A stretch of 35,401 nt of DNA from Hydrogenimonas thermophila (GTDB taxonomy: Bacteria > Campylobacterota > Campylobacteria > Campylobacterales > Hydrogenimonadaceae). The notes under the pieces were generated by a model. The model was not told the DNA's origin and ran no database searches. It was given only the letters and a program-made list of their open reading frames with translations. Positions 3,694 to 14,401 of this stretch are shown in pieces. The stretch lies in NCBI RefSeq assembly GCF_900115615.1, contig NZ_FOXB01000023.1, positions 1-35,401 of the forward strand, in the 5' to 3' direction. A program made the position numbers and the translations under genes. Within the stretch, counting starts at the first letter, position 1. Each line of letters starts with the position of its first letter.

Positions 3694-5709
3694 CTACTTA
3701 ACAACCTCTAAACTACCCTTTAACCTCAACTGCTCTTTAAATGGTACAATTACCATTAAACTGACTCCTTGCGTCATTAGCTCATACCCATCTTCACTTT
3801 GAGAAAGAGTTTTAAGTGGTAGGGCAAATAGTGAGAAAAAGTGATCAAGTGAAAATATTATATTACGCTTAGTATATGGATCGCTTAGAGTAAACTCTTT
3901 TAACTCATTGCATCTTATACCGTCGCCTATAACTTTTTGGTTGAGATAAACATCTTTCAAATTGGCAAAATGGAGATTTAGTTCAAGACCGTACTCATAA
4001 ATATGTGGGCTTTCGCTTTTAAGCTCTATTTTAAAGTCAACTCCGTTATCTAACGGTCTATAACTCTTTTTCAGATGAGATGGATAGGTTTGATTATCGA
4101 AAATAGCACCATAACGCTCAAAGAGTAGCCTCTTTTTGCCTATCTTTACATCAAATGGTTGATTGGTAAAATCGGAAAACTCCCTAAAACTGCACTCTAT
4201 GAAACTCTTTAAATCAAGTGTATGATCGCTTATATGATCTATAAAAGAGTTTTTAAGATACCAGTCATAAACTAATGCATCTTTTAGATCCTCTTCAACC
4301 TTATCTAAACTGTTATGAATATTTAAAGTGCCGTCACCACTATGATCACCACTTTCAGATTCAAGAATCTTTTTATGATACGCCTCTTTGCGACGTGTCA
4401 AAACATTTTGAAAGTTAAATGCACTCTTTCTGTCGTCAAACTCGATCAATTGACCGCCATAACGACTATCAAACCTCATTATCACCTCTTTCTGCACCAT
4501 CTTGACCTCATCATAACCGTTAAGATCGATGTCTGCACACTCTATAGCAACCTTTTTGGCATATCGTATATTTTCGCAATTTATAAGGTAGCGGTAGGCA
4601 TTATCGCGCAGATGGGGCAGATAGATACCACCAAAAATACCATGCCAAAAGAGATCATTGGTTTGAAGTGCATATAGGTTTTCAAGAAAGTCAGACTTTT
4701 TTGTACGAACTTTAGAGATCTCGATCATACGTTTATGTAGCCGATTTGACTCTTCATACTTTACAAAGAAGTTTTTCCAAACTCCACCTTTTAGAAACTT
4801 TACCGCATCTTGATCAGATATCTGCTCTTTTAAAGCCTTCAATTGCAAAGCATCACTTGCCTTCAAACTCCACTCTCCCATCTCATAATATGAGACATTT
4901 GGAAGATAGGCGATCCCTTTTGGACGGTGCGAATGAAAATATTCGCCAAAATGCATTGTATTAATCGACTCATCACTCAAAATCGCATCTATAAACTCTT
5001 CAAGCCAACCTTGCTCATATACCCAGTGATGCGTCTTTCGCCACAATCCAAACTTTTCAACATCATCAAAGATAATTGCTGAACCGCCAGGTGAATTAAC
5101 ACTGCTCTTAATTGCTCTTATCGCTTCATCTACCGGTTTAAAGGGCAGTGCATAACGTAGTTCTTGAGAGATAGGAAATAGTGCAATCGACTCTCCGCTC
5201 TCTTCTGTATTGTAGTAACCATCCAAACGATCTTTATCAAACCCTGCTGAGATAAAGTGGTAATCATCTACAATGCTATATTTGATATTAGATTTAACAA
5301 GATCGGGAATAAGTCCCGCCTCCCAGATCCGCTCGGTAAGCCATAACCCTTGCGGTTTTTGTTTAAAGAAATGTTTAATACTACGATTGAGCCTTTTAAT
5401 TTGAGCAACTCGATCTTTTGATGGTATAGCACTAAGAATCGGCTCATAAAATCCAGCCGTAAAAAGCTCAATACTCCCCTCTTTTGCAAGCCACTGCATA
5501 TCGGCAAAGAGTTTAGGATAGTTTTGCTCAATGGTTTCAAGAAGCCACCCGCTACAATGAACACTAAAACGAAATTCCGGAAACTTACGCATCAGTGCAA
5601 AAAATGGTGTATAGCAGGTTTTAACTGCACGATCTATTGTCTCTTTAAAGTTGTCAACCGGTTGATGCATATGTACGCCAAACAGTAGAGCAATACTCTC
5701 TTTTCTCAT
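3694..5709 (-). CDS. GH57 4-alpha-glucanotransferase
   Basis: Transfers alpha-1,4-glucan segments between chains (amylomaltase reaction), helping remodel or mobilise storage glucan in the cytoplasm. The GH57 barrel shows VHMHQPVDN at 12-20, the nucleophile motif GLWLTERIWE with Glu126, and the acid/base region IFDDVEKFGLW with Asp215/Asp216. The C-terminal half (about 300-671) matches the beta-sandwich extension found in this subgroup. At 671 residues it matches Thermococcus litoralis-type 4-alpha-glucanotransferase, about 659 residues. It is the last gene of the run from pfkA, 8 nt after the other GH57 gene. The Shine-Dalgarno is weak, so translation may be coupled. An alpha-amylase role is the main alternative. 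Confidence 0.85.
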   Translation of the reverse strand: MRKESIALLFGVHMHQPVDNFKETIDRAVKTCYTPFFALMRKFPEFRFSVHCSGWLLETIEQNYPKLFADMQWLAKEGSIELFTAGFYEPILSAIPSKDRVAQIKRLNRSIKHFFKQKPQGLWLTERIWEAGLIPDLVKSNIKYSIVDDYHFISAGFDKDRLDGYYNTEESGESIALFPISQELRYALPFKPVDEAIRAIKSSVNSPGGSAIIFDDVEKFGLWRKTHHWVYEQGWLEEFIDAILSDESINTMHFGEYFHSHRPKGIAYLPNVSYYEMGEWSLKASDALQLKALKEQISDQDAVKFLKGGVWKNFFVKYEESNRLHKRMIEISKVRTKKSDFLENLYALQTNDLFWHGIFGGIYLPHLRDNAYRYLINCENIRYAKKVAIECADIDLNGYDEVKMVQKEVIMRFDSRYGGQLIEFDDRKSAFNFQNVLTRRKEAYHKKILESESGDHSGDGTLNIHNSLDKVEEDLKDALVYDWYLKNSFIDHISDHTLDLKSFIECSFREFSDFTNQPFDVKIGKKRLLFERYGAIFDNQTYPSHLKKSYRPLDNGVDFKIELKSESPHIYEYGLELNLHFANLKDVYLNQKVIGDGIRCNELKEFTLSDPYTKRNIIFSLDHFFSLFALPLKTLSQSEDGYELMTQGVSLMVIVPFKEQLRLKGSLEVVK

Positions 5710-5717
5710 AAACTAAC

Positions 5718-7208
5718 TCACTTCAACTCTGTAATTGGGAAAAAGAGTTCAGACGGCGGTGTCACATCCATCAATTTGTAAATCTCTATCAAATGGTTAC
5801 GAAATAGTTGATCAAACTCTTTGGCATACTCATTATGGTGTTCATTGCCATACCACCAGAACCAATCGGAAGATTCGCTTATGAGAAAATGATTGGTAAT
5901 TTCACTCCGTACTCTGCTTGAAACTCTTTTAATATGGCAACGATAATCCTCTTTTGTTTTATAAATAAGCTCCCACGCCCTACTCTTTTGCGGATGAGCC
6001 ACCCACGTATCAAAGTTTCCATCTATCCAACTTCCAGAATGCAGACGCTTAAGCCTTTTTACCAGCCTCTCTTTTGCCAACTCATCCATTGTTACAGTTT
6101 GACAATCGTCTGCCTCATCAAGCTGTCGGTATAGTTCACTTAAAAAGTCATATCCACTCTTTTTATAAAACTCCCAACTATTTTCTCCATCAAGAATGAC
6201 TGAAACTTTTGGATCTTTCTCTTTTTTCTCAATTTGCCTAAGATGTAAAATAAAGTTATCTACCGCATCTTTAGCACTCCAATAACGATAGCTAAATGCA
6301 ATCAAATCGCTAAGCGTTCGATCTCTAAATGCGATAAAGAGATCATTAAAATGGTGACACTTATAGAGTTCATTTCCACTCTTCTTCCCCAACGATTTAA
6401 ACAAAATCTCTTCATCTGTAGCAATCCAGCGAATACCGTAAGATTTATATAGTGCTACACTCTTTTCATCTACTGCACCTTCAGCTGGCCAAATCCCTAT
6501 AGGAGATTTACCAAACACCTCTCTATATAGTTCTATTGCACGTTTAACCTGCTCTTTAGCATCAGATAGAAGTAACTTTTTCTCTAACAATAGCGGCAAA
6601 ATCGGGTGGTAATATGGTGTTGTTGACAATGAGATTTGTCCACTCTCTTGAAGCAACTTATAAAAAGGTAGAATTGTTGGAATAAAACTCATCAGTACAT
6701 CAAGTAACTCATCTTTATCTTCCAAGCTGAAATCTTTACCCTTGTTGATCAACTGCTTTACAGTTTCATTATGTTGTCTAAGGTAATTCCCACACCAAGA
6801 GAGCATAAAGAGAACTTCAAGCTCTATAAATTCACTATCATCAAGACTCTCTTTACCATAAAGCTCTGCATATCTAAAAAAGGGCTTTACCATCGTCTCA
6901 AACTGCGGTGAATTGCAGATTTTCATTACCCAAGTACGCTCATAATTAGAGAGTTTACTTGGATCTTTTCTCCATAAAGAGAGAAAGAGATCGCACTTAT
7001 AACCACACTTTTCATAAAGCAGTAACTGCTCAATCAATGTGGGCGTAAGATTAAAAGTTGCTTTGAGAGATGGAAAGTTTGAGAGAAGATATGGCATATC
7101 ATAGTAGTCTTTAATCGAATGCAAAAAGACCCAGGGCATCACCATCACACCAGATATATTACGATAATCCGGTTGATGCATATGCCAAAAGAGTGAAAGT
7201 TTAATCAC
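5718..7208 (-). CDS. GH57 family alpha-glucan hydrolase (amylase/amylopullulanase-like)
   Basis: A GH57 retaining enzyme acting on alpha-glucans. FWHMHQPDYR at 7-16 is the family's first conserved region, GIWPAEGAVDE carries the probable nucleophile Glu243, and VSVILDGENSWEFY carries the probable acid/base Asp340. This pattern fits the COG1449/amylopullulanase branch rather than the glucanotransferase branch next door. The gene starts with GTG at 7208, whose bases overlap the TAA of the upstream gene by 8 nt. The HMHQP motif so close to the N-terminus supports that start over the internal ATGs. No signal peptide is present, so it acts in the cytoplasm. The precise bond specificity cannot be read from the sequence. 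Confidence 0.8.
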   Translation of the reverse strand: MIKLSLFWHMHQPDYRNISGVMVMPWVFLHSIKDYYDMPYLLSNFPSLKATFNLTPTLIEQLLLYEKCGYKCDLFLSLWRKDPSKLSNYERTWVMKICNSPQFETMVKPFFRYAELYGKESLDDSEFIELEVLFMLSWCGNYLRQHNETVKQLINKGKDFSLEDKDELLDVLMSFIPTILPFYKLLQESGQISLSTTPYYHPILPLLLEKKLLLSDAKEQVKRAIELYREVFGKSPIGIWPAEGAVDEKSVALYKSYGIRWIATDEEILFKSLGKKSGNELYKCHHFNDLFIAFRDRTLSDLIAFSYRYWSAKDAVDNFILHLRQIEKKEKDPKVSVILDGENSWEFYKKSGYDFLSELYRQLDEADDCQTVTMDELAKERLVKRLKRLHSGSWIDGNFDTWVAHPQKSRAWELIYKTKEDYRCHIKRVSSRVRSEITNHFLISESSDWFWWYGNEHHNEYAKEFDQLFRNHLIEIYKLMDVTPPSELFFPITELK

Positions 7209-9717
7209 CGATTAGTCTGCTATATTTGTTATAGATTTGATTACCCAACTCTTCATCTAAAGCTTGAATGTAGAGATTAAGATGCTCATTATATTGATCA
7301 GGAATCATTAAAACCCAGTCTGTTTTACTCTCCCAAATCTTTACGCCATCTATAGATGAACTCCTTTTATCTTTGGCATACTCAAGGAATTTCCGCATAA
7401 TTTTGCCCTTTAAAGATTGTGGACAGGGAACTTGGTAAGTTGCATAAAAAAAGCGAGACATCTCTTTAGCGACATTGGAGAGTTTAACCTTATGACGTGC
7501 CAAAAGCTCCATAATCTTCAAACTTGCATACATAGCGTCACGATGAAGAGCAAACTCAGTAAAAGCGTAGTTTCCATCTATGGTAGCAATAAGATCAAAC
7601 TCATTAAGAGTTTCTGATTTAAAGTTAGCATACTTTCCACGCTCTATAATGAGATATTTAAATAGTTGATCCATAAGATCAGGTGCCCAAGTTGGAAGAA
7701 AAACGTGCATTTTTCTCTCTTTTAATTCAGCCTCCATATTCATCAACTCTAAAACAGCGATCAAAGCTTCTACCTTATTTAGCACCTCTCCCCTGTCTGT
7801 AACAAGTGTTAGAGACTGACCGTGCGGATCAATAAGTATGCCCATATTTAAACCCAAATTTTTGACAATATCAGAGATATCCTTCTTCGATTTCATCTTA
7901 TAGTGTTCAATATTGGCAAGCTTTTTCTCATCTTTATATGTATTTAACATAATGTTGTCGATCTGAAGATTTGTAATCATTTGAGGAAAAAAATCTTTAG
8001 TTATACCAAACATCAGATCTACCGCTACGCGAAAACCACTATTTTTAATAGTTTTACCATCTATTGAACTCTCTAAAGCATCTTTATAGTTTTGGTACTC
8101 ACTCTTGCTGTAGAAATCTCTCTCATAGATATTACCAATTTGAGAGTAGTCAACTCTTCTAAAATCCTCTTTGAAAAAGCTCTTCTCAATTCTCTTTGCA
8201 CTATTGTGATCAAGCCTGAGACCCTCTTCATTATATAGCGTGATCTCAATATTGGCAGGATCGCTTAAACTTTTACGAAAATAGGCTCCAGCTATAATAT
8301 TTTCATCACTCTGAATATTGTAACGAAGCAGAGATGGGGGAACTGCGTGCAAGTCCAACACATCAACCCCTGCTGAGAGAAGTCCTCCTACAAATGCCCG
8401 TTTGATCATACGTGGACTCTTATCATAATCGCGTCCTATAAGTACACAACTTCCAATTGGCAATTGAGATCCAAACGCCTCTGCTATCTTACAAGCCATT
8501 CCACAGCTTATCTCAACATTACTCTTTCCTACAATGCTTCCGCTCTCAAAAATGGCATTTCTATATTTTGTACCTAAAACGATACTATTATTTACAATAG
8601 CGGTCGGCTCTATCTCCTTTTCTGGCCAAACCGTAACATCCTGCTCAAAAGTTGCAAGTTTTCCAATGTCACAACCCTCTGCAAGAATCAGACCAGCTTT
8701 TGCCGTTACGCTATCTCCTATTTTATTGTCATTACATATTACAGCATTATCTAACACTACACTGTTACCTACTGAAATATCATCCCAAAAGATTGAGTTT
8801 CGTAAGCGACACCCTTTTCCAAAAGTTACATTATCGCCTACTACTACATTATGAAGCCTACTCCCCTCACCAACTGTTACATTATCGCCAATTACGACAG
8901 TATCTACAATATTTATATTAGCATCAACTTTACTGTTGCCGGTCATATAGAGTGTTCCTTCAGGATACTCAATCTTTCTTCCGGAGATTTGAAACTTTAA
9001 CCTTCTATTCGATATATCATCATATAGATCACGGTAACTCTCAGGATTACCAACATCGCGCCAATACCCTGTAGCGTTATAGCCTAAAAGATCTACACTC
9101 TCTCTCATCAGTAAAGGAAAGAGATCTTTTGCAAAATCAAAACTCTCTCCAACGGGAATATAATCAAGAATCTCCGGCTCTATCACATAGATTCCTGTAT
9201 TGATAGTATCGCTAAAGACCTCTCCCCAACTCGGTTTTTCCAAAAACTTCTCTATCTTTCCATCTTCATTTGCTATAACCACACCAAACTGCAAAGGATT
9301 CTCTACAGAGGTCAATGTAATAGTAAGTTTGGAATCTCTCTCTTCGTGATAGTCCAAAATCTCTCTAAAATCAAAGTCTGTAACAAGGTCACCGCTGACA
9401 ATCATAAAAGTGGTATCTAAAAACTCTCTTCCAAACCCTACAGCTCCTGCTGTTCCATAGTCATCATCAGGAACTACATATTGAATCTTTACTCCCCACT
9501 TACTGCCATCTTGAAAATACTCTTTTATTATTTCAGGTTTAAAGTAAAGAAGTATCACTATATCATCAATGCCTGTTTCAATGAGTCTATTTAATGTATG
9601 CTCCATCATTGGTAGATTCATTATTGAAAGCATCGGTTTAGGGACAGAGTTTGTCAACGGTTGAATGCGGGTACCAAACCCGCCTGCCATCATTACAGCC
9701 TTTATATTTTTGGACAC
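7201..9717 (-). CDS. Sugar nucleotidyltransferase fused to degenerate phosphomannomutase-like domain
   Basis: A three-part protein of 838 residues. First, a nucleotidyltransferase (about 5-235) with the pyrophosphorylase signature AGGFGTRIQPLT and PKPML at 11-30, and Asp110 in VSGDLV. Second, hexapeptide repeats forming a left-handed beta-helix (about 255-390). Third, a phosphohexomutase-like part (about 400-838). In the third part the phosphoserine loop, normally T-A-S-H-N-P, reads YFRKSLSDPAN (479-489), and the metal loop, normally DGDxDR, reads DPHGQSL. The mutase activity is therefore probably lost. Proteins of this build are usually called mannose-1-phosphate guanylyltransferases, but the nucleotide and sugar are not readable. 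The start is GTG at 9717, with GGAAA about 7 nt upstream, 15 nt after pfkA. Its place among glucan genes suggests a role in glycogen precursor supply or control. Confidence 0.85.
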   Translation of the reverse strand: MSKNIKAVMMAGGFGTRIQPLTNSVPKPMLSIMNLPMMEHTLNRLIETGIDDIVILLYFKPEIIKEYFQDGSKWGVKIQYVVPDDDYGTAGAVGFGREFLDTTFMIVSGDLVTDFDFREILDYHEERDSKLTITLTSVENPLQFGVVIANEDGKIEKFLEKPSWGEVFSDTINTGIYVIEPEILDYIPVGESFDFAKDLFPLLMRESVDLLGYNATGYWRDVGNPESYRDLYDDISNRRLKFQISGRKIEYPEGTLYMTGNSKVDANINIVDTVVIGDNVTVGEGSRLHNVVVGDNVTFGKGCRLRNSIFWDDISVGNSVVLDNAVICNDNKIGDSVTAKAGLILAEGCDIGKLATFEQDVTVWPEKEIEPTAIVNNSIVLGTKYRNAIFESGSIVGKSNVEISCGMACKIAEAFGSQLPIGSCVLIGRDYDKSPRMIKRAFVGGLLSAGVDVLDLHAVPPSLLRYNIQSDENIIAGAYFRKSLSDPANIEITLYNEEGLRLDHNSAKRIEKSFFKEDFRRVDYSQIGNIYERDFYSKSEYQNYKDALESSIDGKTIKNSGFRVAVDLMFGITKDFFPQMITNLQIDNIMLNTYKDEKKLANIEHYKMKSKKDISDIVKNLGLNMGILIDPHGQSLTLVTDRGEVLNKVEALIAVLELMNMEAELKERKMHVFLPTWAPDLMDQLFKYLIIERGKYANFKSETLNEFDLIATIDGNYAFTEFALHRDAMYASLKIMELLARHKVKLSNVAKEMSRFFYATYQVPCPQSLKGKIMRKFLEYAKDKRSSSIDGVKIWESKTDWVLMIPDQYNEHLNLYIQALDEELGNQIYNKYSRLIGD

Positions 9718-9732
9718 TACGATTTCCTTTTT

Positions 9733-10692
9733 TTAATCTAACTTATTCAACATACCAAGAAGCTCCGGATTTATAGTATATCTATTATCTACAACTTCAC
9801 TAATTTCACACATTCCATATTGACCATTTTTAATAACCACAACTTTGTTGGAAGATGTGTTTGCAAGCAGATGATCAACTGCACGAATAGTAAACTCAAA
9901 TGCAAGCATTCGATCATAAACTGTTGGGCTTCCACCTCTTTGGATGTGCCCCAAAACTGTTATGCGACTCTCCATACCTACACTATTTTCGAGCCACTGT
10001 GCTATCTCATTTGTCTTTTTAGTTCCCTCAGCAACAATAGATAAGATATAGTTTCTACCATTTGCTATCTCTCTTTTTAAATGCTCTTCAACAACGCTTT
10101 TATTAAAATCTACTTCAGGAACTATACATATCTCAGCACCGCTGGTTATGGCTGAAACAATGGCAAGATAACCGCAATCGCGCCCCATTACCTCAACAAT
10201 AAATGCACGGCTGAATGTAGAGGCTGTATCGCGTATCTTGTCCAGTGCATCGCGTATGACATTTAAAGCTGTATCTACGCCAAGACAGATATCTGTTCCA
10301 TATATATCGTTATCTATGGTTGTCGGAATCCCAACAAAGTTGAGGTCAAACTCTCTACTCATAAGATCCATAGCCCTAAAAGATCCATCACCGCCAAGAA
10401 CAACAAGACCAGTAACATCACTCTTAACAAGATTTTCATAAGCCTGTTTCCTATACTTATATTCATAAAATCGTTTAGATCTTGATGAGCGAATAATCGC
10501 ACCACCACGATGGACGATCCCCGCTACATCTTTATGTGTAGCCCTCTCTATCTGCCCATCTATTAAGCCCTCCAACCCGTTATATACAAAGTATGGAATT
10601 TCACCTTTTTCATAAACATAATCTACGAATCTCTTAATTGCAGGATTCATCCCCGGCGCATCACCGCCCGAACACATTATTGCAAGTGACAT
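9733..10692 (-). CDS. pfkA: 6-phosphofructokinase
   Basis: Phosphorylates fructose 6-phosphate to fructose 1,6-bisphosphate, committing hexose phosphate to glycolysis. It has the usual short-form length (319 residues). Motifs in order: SGGDAPGMN (8-16), GGDGSF (100-105; Gly103 after the Asp is the ATP-type residue), PTTIDNDI with catalytic Asp127, EVMGRDCGY (167-175), GHIQRGGSPT. Residue 124 is Thr, where the E. coli enzyme has Gly and PPi-dependent enzymes have Lys, so phosphoryl-donor preference is probably ATP but not certain. AAAGGA lies a suitable distance before the ATG. It heads the run pfkA, nucleotidyltransferase fusion, GH57, GH57. Campylobacter and Helicobacter lack this enzyme, so its presence is a distinguishing trait. 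Confidence 0.92.
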   Translation of the reverse strand: MSLAIMCSGGDAPGMNPAIKRFVDYVYEKGEIPYFVYNGLEGLIDGQIERATHKDVAGIVHRGGAIIRSSRSKRFYEYKYRKQAYENLVKSDVTGLVVLGGDGSFRAMDLMSREFDLNFVGIPTTIDNDIYGTDICLGVDTALNVIRDALDKIRDTASTFSRAFIVEVMGRDCGYLAIVSAITSGAEICIVPEVDFNKSVVEEHLKREIANGRNYILSIVAEGTKKTNEIAQWLENSVGMESRITVLGHIQRGGSPTVYDRMLAFEFTIRAVDHLLANTSSNKVVVIKNGQYGMCEISEVVDNRYTINPELLGMLNKLD

Positions 10693-10857: not shown

Positions 10858-11103
10858 ATGCAAACTATTCAAGTAGCTGAATTGAAGTCTCACTTTTCAG
10901 ACGTCTTAAAAAGTATAAAAAATGAGGGTGAACAATTCATTATCGAATATGGTAAACAACATGAAAAAGTAGCTATGCTAATTCCTTATGACAAAAATAT
11001 AGAGATTCAAAATCAAAGGGAGTTTGGATTGTACAAAGGTAAAGGTGGGTTTTCTATAAAAGATGATTTTGAGATGAGTGATGAAGAGTTATTAGGAATA
11101 TGA
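10858..11103 (+). CDS. Phd/YefM-family antitoxin
   Basis: An 81-residue antitoxin of a type II toxin-antitoxin pair. The N-terminal half has the Phd/YefM pattern (IQVAELKSHFSDVLKSIKN followed by a hydrophobic, DNA-binding dimer core). The acidic C-terminal tail (KDDFEMSDEELLGI) is the kind that wraps a PIN toxin. It is expected to neutralise the toxin and repress its own promoter. AGGAGG sits 6 nt before the ATG, making a strong translation start. The gene overlaps the toxin by 4 nt (ATGA). It is placed as a plus-strand insert within minus-strand sugar genes. Confidence 0.85.
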   Translation: MQTIQVAELKSHFSDVLKSIKNEGEQFIIEYGKQHEKVAMLIPYDKNIEIQNQREFGLYKGKGGFSIKDDFEMSDEELLGI

Positions 11104-11501
11104 AAAAATATCTTATCGATACTCATATATTTTTATGGCTCGTTTTTGATCCAGAAAAAGTTAATACCAAGAAACTTGAAATACTAAAAGATCCGCAAAA
11201 TAAAATTTTTATTGCAAGTATTTCATTTTGGGAGATATCTCTCAAATACAATCTTGGTAAACTTAGTCTTAGTGGACTAACCCCTGATGAATTACCAAAA
11301 GTAGCTCAAAAGATGGGGATCGATACCTTAGAGATTGAAAAAGAGGTAATGGCTAGTTTTTATAAGCTTCCTAAAGTTCAAACCCACAAAGATCCATTTG
11401 ATCGAATAATTATTTGGCAATGTATTAATGACAATATAACACTTATTTCTCAAGATCGAAAATTTAGTGAATATGAAAGTTTTGGTTTAAAAACTTTTTA
11501 A
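11100..11501 (+). CDS. PIN-domain toxin (VapC-type ribonuclease)
   Basis: A 133-residue PIN-domain protein, a metal-dependent ribonuclease toxin. Acidic active-site candidates are Asp7 (YLIDTHIFLW), Glu45 (ISFWEISLKY), Asp98/Asp101 (HKDPFDRII) and Asp119 (ISQDRKF). The set is complete, so it should be active. It belongs to the PIN branch that pairs with Phd-type antitoxins. Its ATG overlaps the antitoxin stop, so translation is coupled and the antitoxin is made first. Its stop codon lies only 3 nt from the stop of the convergent phosphorylase-like gene, with no terminator in between. Confidence 0.85.
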   Translation: MKKYLIDTHIFLWLVFDPEKVNTKKLEILKDPQNKIFIASISFWEISLKYNLGKLSLSGLTPDELPKVAQKMGIDTLEIEKEVMASFYKLPKVQTHKDPFDRIIIWQCINDNITLISQDRKFSEYESFGLKTF

Positions 11502-11504
11502 TTT

Positions 11505-13142
11505 TTAAAAATATAGCTTTTCATAGTACTCATCAGCCATTCTGGATGAGTCAAAATATGCCAAAATGTCATTCATAGCATTTTTGGCTATCATAAGCCA
11601 CTCTTTCTCATTTTCATAATAGGTAGGAATAATAGTGTTTTCCAACTTTTGCATCATAGTAAGATAGTCCAATCTATCGATCTCATCATTTGGAAGTGAA
11701 GGGTCAGAGTGAGGAATAGTAAAAGAGTTTACTCCATCTTTTTGAAACTCTGCATGCCATCCATCATCAATAGAAAAGTGGATTGAAGCGTTAATTCCAG
11801 CAGTCATTCCACTGGTTCCGCTTGCTTCTCGCCCCCATCTTGGAGTATTTAGCCAAAGATCACTTCCCTGCTTGAGAAGTCTAGAGAGTCTAAGCTCATA
11901 TCCTGTAAGAATTGCTACATTTTTAAACTCTTTACTCATCATTATGAGATCATTAAACATATGTACAGCTCTATTGTCAAGAGGGTAAGGCTTTCCTGCC
12001 CAAATGATCTGAACAGGACGATCTCTGTTTGAAACAAGCTCTCTAAAACGCTCCATATCATAAATCAAAAGCCCTGGACGTTTATACTCGGCAAATCTTC
12101 TTGCCCATACTATTGTCAATATATCTGGATCAAACAGTTTACCTGTCTGATCTGCAACCTCTTCAAAGAGTCTATATTTCAAATGCTTTTTTCGCCCTAC
12201 AAGCTGATAATCTTCATGCTCTTGCATCCAACTCATCAACTGTTTATCTGCCCAGTAACGCATATTTTGAGCATTTGTAATACTTATGATTTCACACCTG
12301 CCTTTAACATCCTGCCACATCTCATTTGCAACACTTTTATGTATCTTTGAAACAGCATTAGCACGTTTCGATGTCTTTAATGCACCAACAGTCAAAGAGA
12401 AGTGTTCATCATAATAGTCCAATTTTTTCTGCATATCTTCTACACTGAAACCGTTGAAAAATCCCATTCTAAAAAGCAAATATACATTATGCTCCTCATT
12501 ACCAGCCATCTCTGGAGTATGTGTTGTAAAAACAACATATTTTTTCAAATTTTCAAGATTTGAATACCTCTTCATTAACTCAAAAACAAGAGGTAAAGAG
12601 TGTCCTTCATTCATATGATAAACATCAACATCAACACCCATAGCCTCAAGAACTTTAACACCACCTATTCCAAGTACAATCTCTTGAGCTATACGAGTCT
12701 CTTCGTTTGCATCATAGAGCTTATGGCAAATAGTTCTAGATAGATGATCATTTTCAAAGCAGTCAGTTGTTAAAAATATAACTGGGGCTGTGTCAAATGT
12801 AGTTGCAGGTAGAAGATAGGCTTTAACAGTTACAGGTTTTGAGTTTATTGTTACCTCAACCTTTATGCTAGTATCTTCTAAGAAGTAGTAAAATTTACGT
12901 TTATAATCTATTTTAAGCGTATTATCTTCGTGTCTGCTCTGATCATAGTAGCCATAACTCCAGAGCATTCCAACGCCTATAAGCTTCTGCCTTCTGTCAT
13001 TGGCACTGCGCATATGTGAACCGGCAAGAAACCCCAATCCACCTGAGTATGTCTTTAGAGCCTGATCAATTGCAAACTCCATTGAAAAATATGCTACTTG
13101 GCAACTAAACTCTTCAGCAACTGTGTATGGGTAGAGGTCCAT
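11505..13142 (-). CDS. GT35 alpha-glucan phosphorylase-like protein lacking the PLP lysine
   Basis: A 545-residue member of the short glycogen/maltodextrin phosphorylase group, which normally releases glucose 1-phosphate from alpha-glucan using pyridoxal phosphate. Conserved parts: VAYFSMEFAI and YSGGLGFLAG at the N-terminus, HMNEGHSLPL (176-185), FTTHTPEMAG (205-214), WARRFAEYKRP (346-356), IWAGKPYPLD and EASGTSGM (439-446). The residue after SGTSGM is the Schiff-base lysine in working phosphorylases; here it is Thr447, codon ACT read on the minus strand at 11804-11802. All other landmarks look intact. Either the protein acts without covalent PLP (another transferase, a hydrolase or a glucan-binding regulator), or a different residue holds the cofactor. 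It lies 5 nt after pgi, in one operon. The Shine-Dalgarno is weak. Confidence 0.85.
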   Translation of the reverse strand: MDLYPYTVAEEFSCQVAYFSMEFAIDQALKTYSGGLGFLAGSHMRSANDRRQKLIGVGMLWSYGYYDQSRHEDNTLKIDYKRKFYYFLEDTSIKVEVTINSKPVTVKAYLLPATTFDTAPVIFLTTDCFENDHLSRTICHKLYDANEETRIAQEIVLGIGGVKVLEAMGVDVDVYHMNEGHSLPLVFELMKRYSNLENLKKYVVFTTHTPEMAGNEEHNVYLLFRMGFFNGFSVEDMQKKLDYYDEHFSLTVGALKTSKRANAVSKIHKSVANEMWQDVKGRCEIISITNAQNMRYWADKQLMSWMQEHEDYQLVGRKKHLKYRLFEEVADQTGKLFDPDILTIVWARRFAEYKRPGLLIYDMERFRELVSNRDRPVQIIWAGKPYPLDNRAVHMFNDLIMMSKEFKNVAILTGYELRLSRLLKQGSDLWLNTPRWGREASGTSGMTAGINASIHFSIDDGWHAEFQKDGVNSFTIPHSDPSLPNDEIDRLDYLTMMQKLENTIIPTYYENEKEWLMIAKNAMNDILAYFDSSRMADEYYEKLYF

Positions 13143-13147
13143 AAAAG

Positions 13148-14401
13148 TTATTTCTTAAATTTATCTGCAAGAATACGCTTGCCTAGCTCAACTCCTGGTT
13201 GATTGTAAGTATCTATATTTAGTATTGCTCCAGTAAGCGAGGTTAAAATTTCATAATATAAAATCAACTCTCCTATGTTTGTTTCACTTAATTTATCTAA
13301 AATAATTGCATCAACAGGAACACCCTGCTGTGCAATTGCTTCACGAGTTGCATCACACTCTGCATTGATTAGCTCATTAAATGTGTGTCCATTTACAAAG
13401 TCGCACTTTTGGATACCCTCAAGCGTTATATCCGGAATGAGAATATCATTTTCAAAATCTTCTATCTTTATGAAAGTTACAGTTTTATCTATTGGTCCTT
13501 CAATAATAAGTTGCAAAAAGGAGTGTTGATCTATAGAGCCAATCTGTCCTAGAGGAGTTAGACCTACTCTATTTCCACTTTTATCTATTTTTCCAAGTGA
13601 TTCTCCCCATAACTGAACATACCACTTAGTAAAATCATCAAGAAATGATGCATATGCAAAAAGAACATTCATTCTATATTTTTCCCAATTGGTTGCAATA
13701 AAAGCAGCTTTAAGAAGAATATGATCCTCTTCTCTGTTAAAAAAACGACGAACTATTTTTGCTCCACCCTCTAAAATAGAGCAGCAATCATAACCAGCAA
13801 GAGTCAAAGGAACAATACCAACTGCACTTAAAACAGAGAAGCGACCTCCTACATTGTGAGGAATGGTATATACCTTAATTCCATATCTATCTGCAAAGCG
13901 GCAAAGTACAGACCCCTCATCTGTTATGGCTATTAGACGATCTTTATCATCTCCATTTAGATCAAGATTAAAATGCGATATAACTACTTTAAAAAGAGAC
14001 ATAGTTTCAATTGTAGAACCAGATTTTGATATAACAATAAAGATAGTCTTCTCTTTATCCATTGAGGCAAACTTTTTAGAGATTTCTACAGGGTCAGGAT
14101 TTTCAAAAAAGATCAATCTTTTTGCTTGAGGATATTTGTGTCTTAACATAGAATCTATCGCTTTAGCTCCGAGTGAAGAGCCTCCTATGCCAATTACTGC
14201 TATTGTGTCACTATTTTTTATAGTTTCAGATGATGACAAAGCCTCTACTTCAGTTACTATCATTTTAGAATCTTCAGGAAGATTATAGTAACCAGCTACT
14301 CCATTTTCACACTCTTCTACAACTCTACAAAATGCTTCATCCATTAAATTACTTATATTTTCATCTATATTAAACTCAAAATCTCTTTGAAACTTGACCA
14401 T
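13148..14401 (-). CDS. pgi: Glucose-6-phosphate isomerase
   Basis: Interconverts glucose 6-phosphate and fructose 6-phosphate. It has the short bacterial form (417 residues): GIGGSSLGAKA (71-81), SKSGSTIET (125-133) for phosphate binding, NVGGRFSVLSAVG, LWGESLGK with the catalytic Glu, DQHSF, and QPGVELGK with the C-terminal Lys near 409. AAGGG lies about 6 nt before the ATG. It heads the pgi to phosphorylase-like operon and joins glucan breakdown products to Pfk further along the same strand. Confidence 0.93.
   Translation of the reverse strand: MVKFQRDFEFNIDENISNLMDEAFCRVVEECENGVAGYYNLPEDSKMIVTEVEALSSSETIKNSDTIAVIGIGGSSLGAKAIDSMLRHKYPQAKRLIFFENPDPVEISKKFASMDKEKTIFIVISKSGSTIETMSLFKVVISHFNLDLNGDDKDRLIAITDEGSVLCRFADRYGIKVYTIPHNVGGRFSVLSAVGIVPLTLAGYDCCSILEGGAKIVRRFFNREEDHILLKAAFIATNWEKYRMNVLFAYASFLDDFTKWYVQLWGESLGKIDKSGNRVGLTPLGQIGSIDQHSFLQLIIEGPIDKTVTFIKIEDFENDILIPDITLEGIQKCDFVNGHTFNELINAECDATREAIAQQGVPVDAIILDKLSETNIGELILYYEILTSLTGAILNIDTYNQPGVELGKRILADKFKK

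Follow-up and report, generated by a model that had tools for sequence, protein, structure and literature searches.

A GT35-like protein of Hydrogenimonas thermophila has threonine in place of the lysine that holds pyridoxal phosphate (PLP) in glycogen phosphorylases, and it belongs to a subfamily that lacks this lysine throughout. To our knowledge, PLP is needed by every studied member of the glycogen phosphorylase family. We tentatively propose that these proteins form a deep subfamily of the GT35 fold without canonical PLP anchoring and serve as alpha-1,4-glucan enzymes of glycogen turnover, most likely phosphorolytic.

Threonine at the PLP-lysine position of a GT35-like protein

The window, which is the whole 35,401-nucleotide stretch of DNA analyzed, encodes a 545-amino-acid (aa) protein that a genome search identified as the sole GT35 of its 2.44-Mb genome. 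Plus-strand positions 11802 to 11804 read AGT, so that the coding strand has ACT and residue 447 is Thr, in the context R438-E439-A-S-G-T-S-G-M446-T447-A. Alignment with E. coli MalP and GlgP placed T447 on MalP K646, which is named as the PLP lysine in a review (PMC11046441).

11505 to 13142, minus strand: GT35-like protein of 545 aa without the PLP lysine (TIGR02094, PF00343, AlphaFold pLDDT 91)
11802 to 11804, minus strand: codon ACT for Thr447 at the PLP-lysine position, equivalent to MalP K646 (codon read and alignment)

A preliminary description of this DNA had pointed out the threonine, and the alignment and codon confirm it. The motifs listed there (NEGHS, HTPE, RRFAEYKR, and AGKPYP) were also found in the 545-aa protein, and its phosphate- and glucan-site motifs are intact. 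A single sequencing error had been considered unlikely; this judgment holds, as AAA and AAG each lie two base changes from ACT and 106 relatives carry Ser, Thr, or Ala at the same position.

The protein scored 419.1 bits against TIGR02094 (cut-off, 191.7) and 42.5 bits against PF00343 (cut-off, 27), the only Pfam family found in it, and the GT5 glycogen synthase model TIGR02095 gave no match at an E value of 0.001. An AlphaFold model built with 38 relatives (pLDDT 91, pTM 0.90) had as its best solved match the Segatella copri glycogen phosphorylase (9l6i_A; Z 34.6, 532 residues, rmsd 2.2), followed by MalP (Z 32) and ADP-bound starch/glycogen synthases (Z about 31). Membership of GT35/TIGR02094 is indicated by scores above the family cut-offs, the GT-B fold, the catalytic Glu, and the basic phosphate-site residues; the canonical PLP-binding lysine is absent, both here and in the relatives.

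With TIGR02094/GT35 phosphorylases, such as S. copri 9l6i and the Thermococcales maltodextrin phosphorylase, the clade shares the fold over 532 residues, the catalytic Glu, both anion sites, and about 31% identity, whereas it differs in having Ser, Thr, or Ala for the PLP lysine, an altered pocket lining, and no N-terminal extension, and in forming a separate clade. The GT-B fold and the phosphate-site Arg/Lys, Glu, and His are also common to the classical GT35 enzymes (E. coli MalP, GlgP, and rabbit muscle glycogen phosphorylase), but the clade lacks their PLP lysine, is about 250 residues shorter, and is only 19 to 22% identical to them. GT5 glycogen synthase (GlgA) has the same fold, a similar size, a donor-site Glu with Arg/Lys, and no PLP. 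Its sequence kinship with the clade is, however, very weak, the clade profile scoring 963 against K-bearing GT35 and 74.7 against GT5; the K-bearing GT35 profile itself scored 82.0 against GT5. An intermediate between GT35 and GT5 was ruled out by this comparison. Because the PLP lysine is absent, "phosphorylase" is unfit as a functional name, and we propose "GT35-like protein, PLP-lysine-less subfamily."

The lysine-less proteins form a subfamily

Relatives were collected with a pattern independent of residue 447. Scoring of the column equivalent to MalP K646, a check suggested in the preliminary description, gave Ser in 52, Thr in 51, Ala in 3, and Lys in none of 106 distinct pooled relatives from Campylobacterota, Bacteroidota, and Pseudomonas-like bacteria; a first set of 62 sequences had 40 Ser, 20 Thr, and 2 Ala. 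Across the 106, Thr is encoded by each of its four codons and Ser by codons of both blocks. Lys occupies this column in 43 of 45 other GT35s read, and the remaining two, which carry Ala and Ser, probably belong to the lysine-less clade and miss one collecting motif pattern. Long GT35 paralogues of sister genomes and of Bacteroidota also have the lysine. In the tree, the lysine-less group makes up one side of a branch with an SH-aLRT of 99, and pairwise dN/dS values of about 0.03 to 0.04 (three pairs with unsaturated dS) indicate purifying selection. The absence of Lys from 106 relatives with varied codons means that Thr447 is neither chance nor error, and together with the low dN/dS it rules out a sequencing error or a pseudogene. 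One Campylobacterota genome (G050, locus L065) has its lysine-less GT35 split into two frames by TAA, which reflects either gene decay or a misassembly.

The substitution therefore marks a subfamily, as the preliminary description had suspected. The same text had tentatively associated it with "other short GT35 proteins," which is correct as to its breadth but not as to size: the lysine is present in two open frames of only 569 and 614 aa (L238 and L239), which shows that shortness is not a marker of lysine absence; these frames also rule out shortness as its cause. No report of a PLP-lysine-less GT35 was found in the literature searched, which consisted mainly of openly accessible papers.

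GT35 was found in 113 of the 299 genomes of the order that were searched, as the short lysine-less type in 102 and as the long type only in 11. Among the matches listed from a named genome collection, the short type occurs in Hydrogenimonas, Nitratiruptor, Sulfurovum, Sulfurimonas, and Sulfuricurvum (Campylobacterota), in Pontibacter, Rufibacter, Chryseobacterium, Sediminibacterium, and Spirosoma (Bacteroidota), and in Pseudomonas/Halopseudomonas.

Conserved and clade-specific active-site residues

Conservation was scored in an alignment of 41 lysine-less and 24 K-bearing rows. Residues G34-G35, H208, N290, R348, R349, Y353, K354, K384, Y415, E439, T443, and S444 are invariant in all 41 lysine-less rows and in the K-bearing GT35s, and W297 is present in 41/41 and 23/24 rows, respectively. 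T443 and S444 lie at the PLP-phosphate loop. In MalP, K534 and K540 coordinate the PLP phosphate and the substrate phosphate (PMC11046441).

11802 to 11828, minus strand: motif E439-ASGTSGM-T447, with E439 equivalent to MalP E638, the catalytic-site Glu (E439, T443, and S444 in 41/41 and 24/24 rows)
12078 to 12101, minus strand: R348-R-F-A-E-Y-K-R355, basic residues for phosphate and PLP-phosphate binding, equivalent to MalP K534, R535, and K540 (R348, R349, Y353, and K354 in 41/41)
12519 to 12521, minus strand: H208, equivalent to MalP H346 (invariant)
13038 to 13043, minus strand: G34-G35, glycine loop, which we take to be rabbit G134-G135 (invariant in 41/41 and 24/24)
11895 to 11897, minus strand: E416, clade specific, beside Y415 (E in 41/41; N, D, or G in K-bearing enzymes)
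11883 to 11885, minus strand: S420, clade specific (S in 41/41; A or G in K-bearing enzymes)
11871 to 11873, minus strand: K424, clade-specific Lys and candidate relocated PLP anchor (K in 41/41; V, I, or T in K-bearing enzymes, I in MalP)

The sites for the substrate phosphate and for the PLP phosphate have thus both been preserved, and the anchor alone is missing. A second group of positions is invariant or nearly so in the clade and different in K-bearing enzymes, namely, E211, A291-Q292, V345-W346, W381, P385, E416, S420, and K424. We assume that E416, S420, and T447 correspond to R649, A653, and K680 of rabbit phosphorylase, which surround PLP, and that K424 lies one helical turn past the A653 equivalent. 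Such a coordinated change points to a changed ligand rather than to decay or mere loss of the anchor.

An ordinary phosphorylase would be retained if the PLP lysine had moved, and K424, on the helix that bears the A653 equivalent and with the distribution given above, is the best candidate; K83, K107, and K335 are further clade-specific lysines. The preliminary description had named such a lysine in another place as a finding that would refute its reading, and K424 is a candidate for it. We consider relocation very unlikely, since we know of no precedent for a moved PLP lysine in GT35 and K424 is presumably two helical turns from the phosphate end of PLP. The loss of an essential catalytic group with retention of the binding residues would also be expected of a noncatalytic regulator kept solely for binding glucan or phosphate. 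This reading is just as improbable: across two phyla, neither the catalytic Glu nor any part of the anion network varies, and most genomes of the order with a glycogen synthase have no other GT35.

Gene neighborhood and co-occurrence with glycogen synthesis

The gene lies among genes of glucan and hexose phosphate metabolism.

13148 to 14401, minus strand: glucose-6-phosphate isomerase (PGI), 5 bp upstream of the GT35 gene (PF00342, NF003016)
9733 to 10692, minus strand: 6-phosphofructokinase (PFK; PF00365)
7201 to 9717, minus strand: nucleotidyltransferase-phosphohexomutase fusion, 838 aa (PF00483, PF02878, PF02879)
5718 to 7208, minus strand: GH57 enzyme, amylase-like (PF03065)
3694 to 5709, minus strand: GH57 4-alpha-glucanotransferase-like enzyme (PF03065, PF09094, PF09095)

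The context that had been described, an operon with pgi beside two GH57 enzymes and Pfk, is upheld for PGI, which is adjacent and on the same strand, but not for PFK, which is separated from the GT35 gene by an antitoxin-PIN pair. This pair (positions 10858 to 11501, plus strand) consists of a predicted antitoxin-like open reading frame of 81 aa and a PIN-domain toxin (PF01850), lies antisense between the two genes, and is preceded by a perfect TTGACA-17-TATAAT promoter-like site. As only 3 nt separate GT35 from PFK in L083, the nearest named relative, the pair was apparently inserted recently and split the operon. The 838-aa fusion, common beside lysine-less GT35, joins a nucleotidyltransferase, left-handed beta-helix repeats, and a phosphohexomutase. 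Elsewhere in the window genome are two GlgA paralogues at separate places (L247 and L248), one with GlgB by pyruvate dehydrogenase and lipoate genes and the other with a ROK kinase. Their presence rules out that the GT35-like protein stands in for a missing glycogen synthase in this genome.

In 63 distinct Campylobacterota loci, the neighbors include GH57 amylase-like enzymes (37 loci), the nucleotidyltransferase-phosphohexomutase fusion (29), GH57 glucanotransferase (19), PGI, GlgA, and ROK kinase (17 each), PFK and phosphoglucomutase (14 each), and GH57 branching enzyme (11), as well as GAPDH, GlgB, PGK, and PK. The usual gene upstream is that for PGI or ROK, the latter being directly upstream in 11 loci. 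Three loci, L043 (4918 to 7578), L050 (5609 to 8170), and L101, encode natural fusions with a ROK domain N-terminal to GT35; the domains are PF00480 and PF00343 in L043 and L050. This conserved glycogen and glycolysis neighborhood and the strong purifying selection support the earlier supposition that the protein is in use.

Genome sets for GlgA and GT35 were compiled by hand from search listings. Across the order, GlgA is encoded in 94 of 102 genomes with lysine-less GT35 (odds ratio 143, ignoring kinship). Among the matches listed for the 109 GlgA genomes of the order, the lysine-less type is the sole GT35 in 69 and the long GT35 occurs alone in 9; at least 25 of the 109 have both the lysine-less and the long K-bearing type, which indicates that the two are not simply interchangeable. 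Outside Campylobacterota, 24 genomes with lysine-less GT35 were considered, of which 13 have a full GlgA and 12 have GlgE; in 23 of 24 Bacteroidota/Pseudomonas-like genomes, the sole GT35 is the lysine-less type. Genomes without GlgA often carry GlgE, and the protein thus follows alpha-glucan, whichever route is used for its synthesis. In a sample of 198 Bacteroidota genomes, with GT35 type inferred from score and length, the long K-bearing type was found in none of the 24 with the short profile, compared with about half of the sample. Its absence beside lysine-less GT35 is the pattern of a phosphorylase stand-in. Bacteroidota with lysine-less GT35 also carry a 260- to 310-aa GT5 N-terminal half (PF08323) without a C-terminal domain, e.g., in Pontibacter (L203, 5609 to 6415).

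Proposed chemistry

The lysine-less clade probably works on glycogen without a PLP cofactor. The proposed reaction would be retaining phosphorolysis (or its reverse) of an alpha-1,4-glucan, with one phosphate in the normal substrate site (R349 and K354). The PLP-phosphate site (R348, T443, S444, and K384) would be filled by diffusible phosphate, by an organic phosphate, or by PLP that is only loosely held, and this putative occupant would replace the anchored cofactor. The substrate, the use of two phosphate groups, and the phosphorolytic direction are what we infer from the retained sites and the genomic setting. GT4 trehalose phosphorylases are not known to need PLP, and glycogen phosphorylase reconstituted with pyridoxal works when a dianion is added. 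The former, which are retaining GT-B phosphorylases outside GT35, use phosphate itself as the proton donor (PMC8950772) and offer a model for PLP-free phosphorolysis, a likeness drawn from the literature alone, as the clade differs from them in family and substrate. Phosphorolysis with diffusible phosphate or loose PLP is the least demanding chemistry. The preliminary description had argued for a different chemistry. This may be so, but the retention of all substrate- and PLP-phosphate residues and the occurrence as the only GT35 in most GlgA genomes of the order would also be expected of phosphorolysis without anchored PLP. Counting against phosphorolysis are the block change of the pocket and the ROK neighbors and fusions (17 of 63 loci and three fusions), which suggest a glucose product.

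The remodeled PLP-ring pocket between intact anion sites would also suit an NDP-glucose-dependent alpha-glucan glucosyltransferase, whose donor would place its nucleoside in the former PLP pocket and one phosphate in each anion site, an arrangement known from other retaining GT-B enzymes. Residue 447, which presumably corresponds to the second Glu of E-X7-E, is specifically Ser or Thr in 103 of 106 relatives and not just any small residue. The nucleotidyltransferase-phosphohexomutase fusion in 29 of 63 loci, the structural match to ADP-bound synthases, and an NDP-sugar-dependent proto-GT35 proposed in the review (PMC11046441) are consistent with this reading. However, GlgA is already present in nearly all of the order's genomes with lysine-less GT35 (94 of 102), kinship to GT5 is no greater than that of K-bearing GT35 (74.7 versus 82.0), and no known nucleotide-binding signature was identified in the clade. 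We therefore regard nucleotide-sugar transfer as possible but unlikely.

We hold the same view of a glucose-releasing hydrolase or disproportionating enzyme, which would cut glucan without phosphorolysis and pass glucose through ROK kinase to PGI and PFK. Such a route accords with the ROK genes directly upstream or fused to GT35, with the ROK proteins being closest to allose kinase/glucokinase models (under their cut-offs), and with PGI, PFK, GAPDH, PGK, and PK as neighbors. Against it, the complete conservation of the phosphate sites would have no purpose in hydrolysis, glucokinase genes accompany ordinary glucan pathways too, and in the window genome ROK adjoins GlgA and not GT35.

Discussion

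The origin of the missing lysine was approached with trees. A free quick tree with a GT5 outgroup joined the clade to the long K-bearing GT35s with a support of 90; this placement would mean that the lysine was lost. An alternative tree, with all Lys-bearing GT35s opposite the clade plus GT5, was not rejected (p-AU 0.67) and scored 5.3 log units above the free quick tree; under this arrangement the branch could be PLP-free from the outset. Long branches are involved in this comparison. That the clade is a surviving branch of this kind, split off before PLP capture and still using a nucleotide sugar or free phosphate, we consider distinctly unlikely. If true, it would be the ancestor type postulated for glycogen phosphorylase: according to a proposal in a 2024 review, the nucleotide of an NDP-sugar-dependent proto-GT35 was replaced by PLP (PMC11046441). 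This idea could be tested on the clade, as could the capacity of the phosphorylase fold to function without anchored PLP, for which the clade is a natural experiment.

In databases, members of the clade are named "alpha-glucan family phosphorylase," a label that leads metabolic models to assign a PLP-dependent reaction that is not feasible for the clade in the known way. The lysine-less branch spans bacteria from hydrothermal-vent species to Chryseobacterium. As the lysine-less type is often the sole GT35 in chemolithotrophic Campylobacterota, glycogen use in many of these organisms should be reread.
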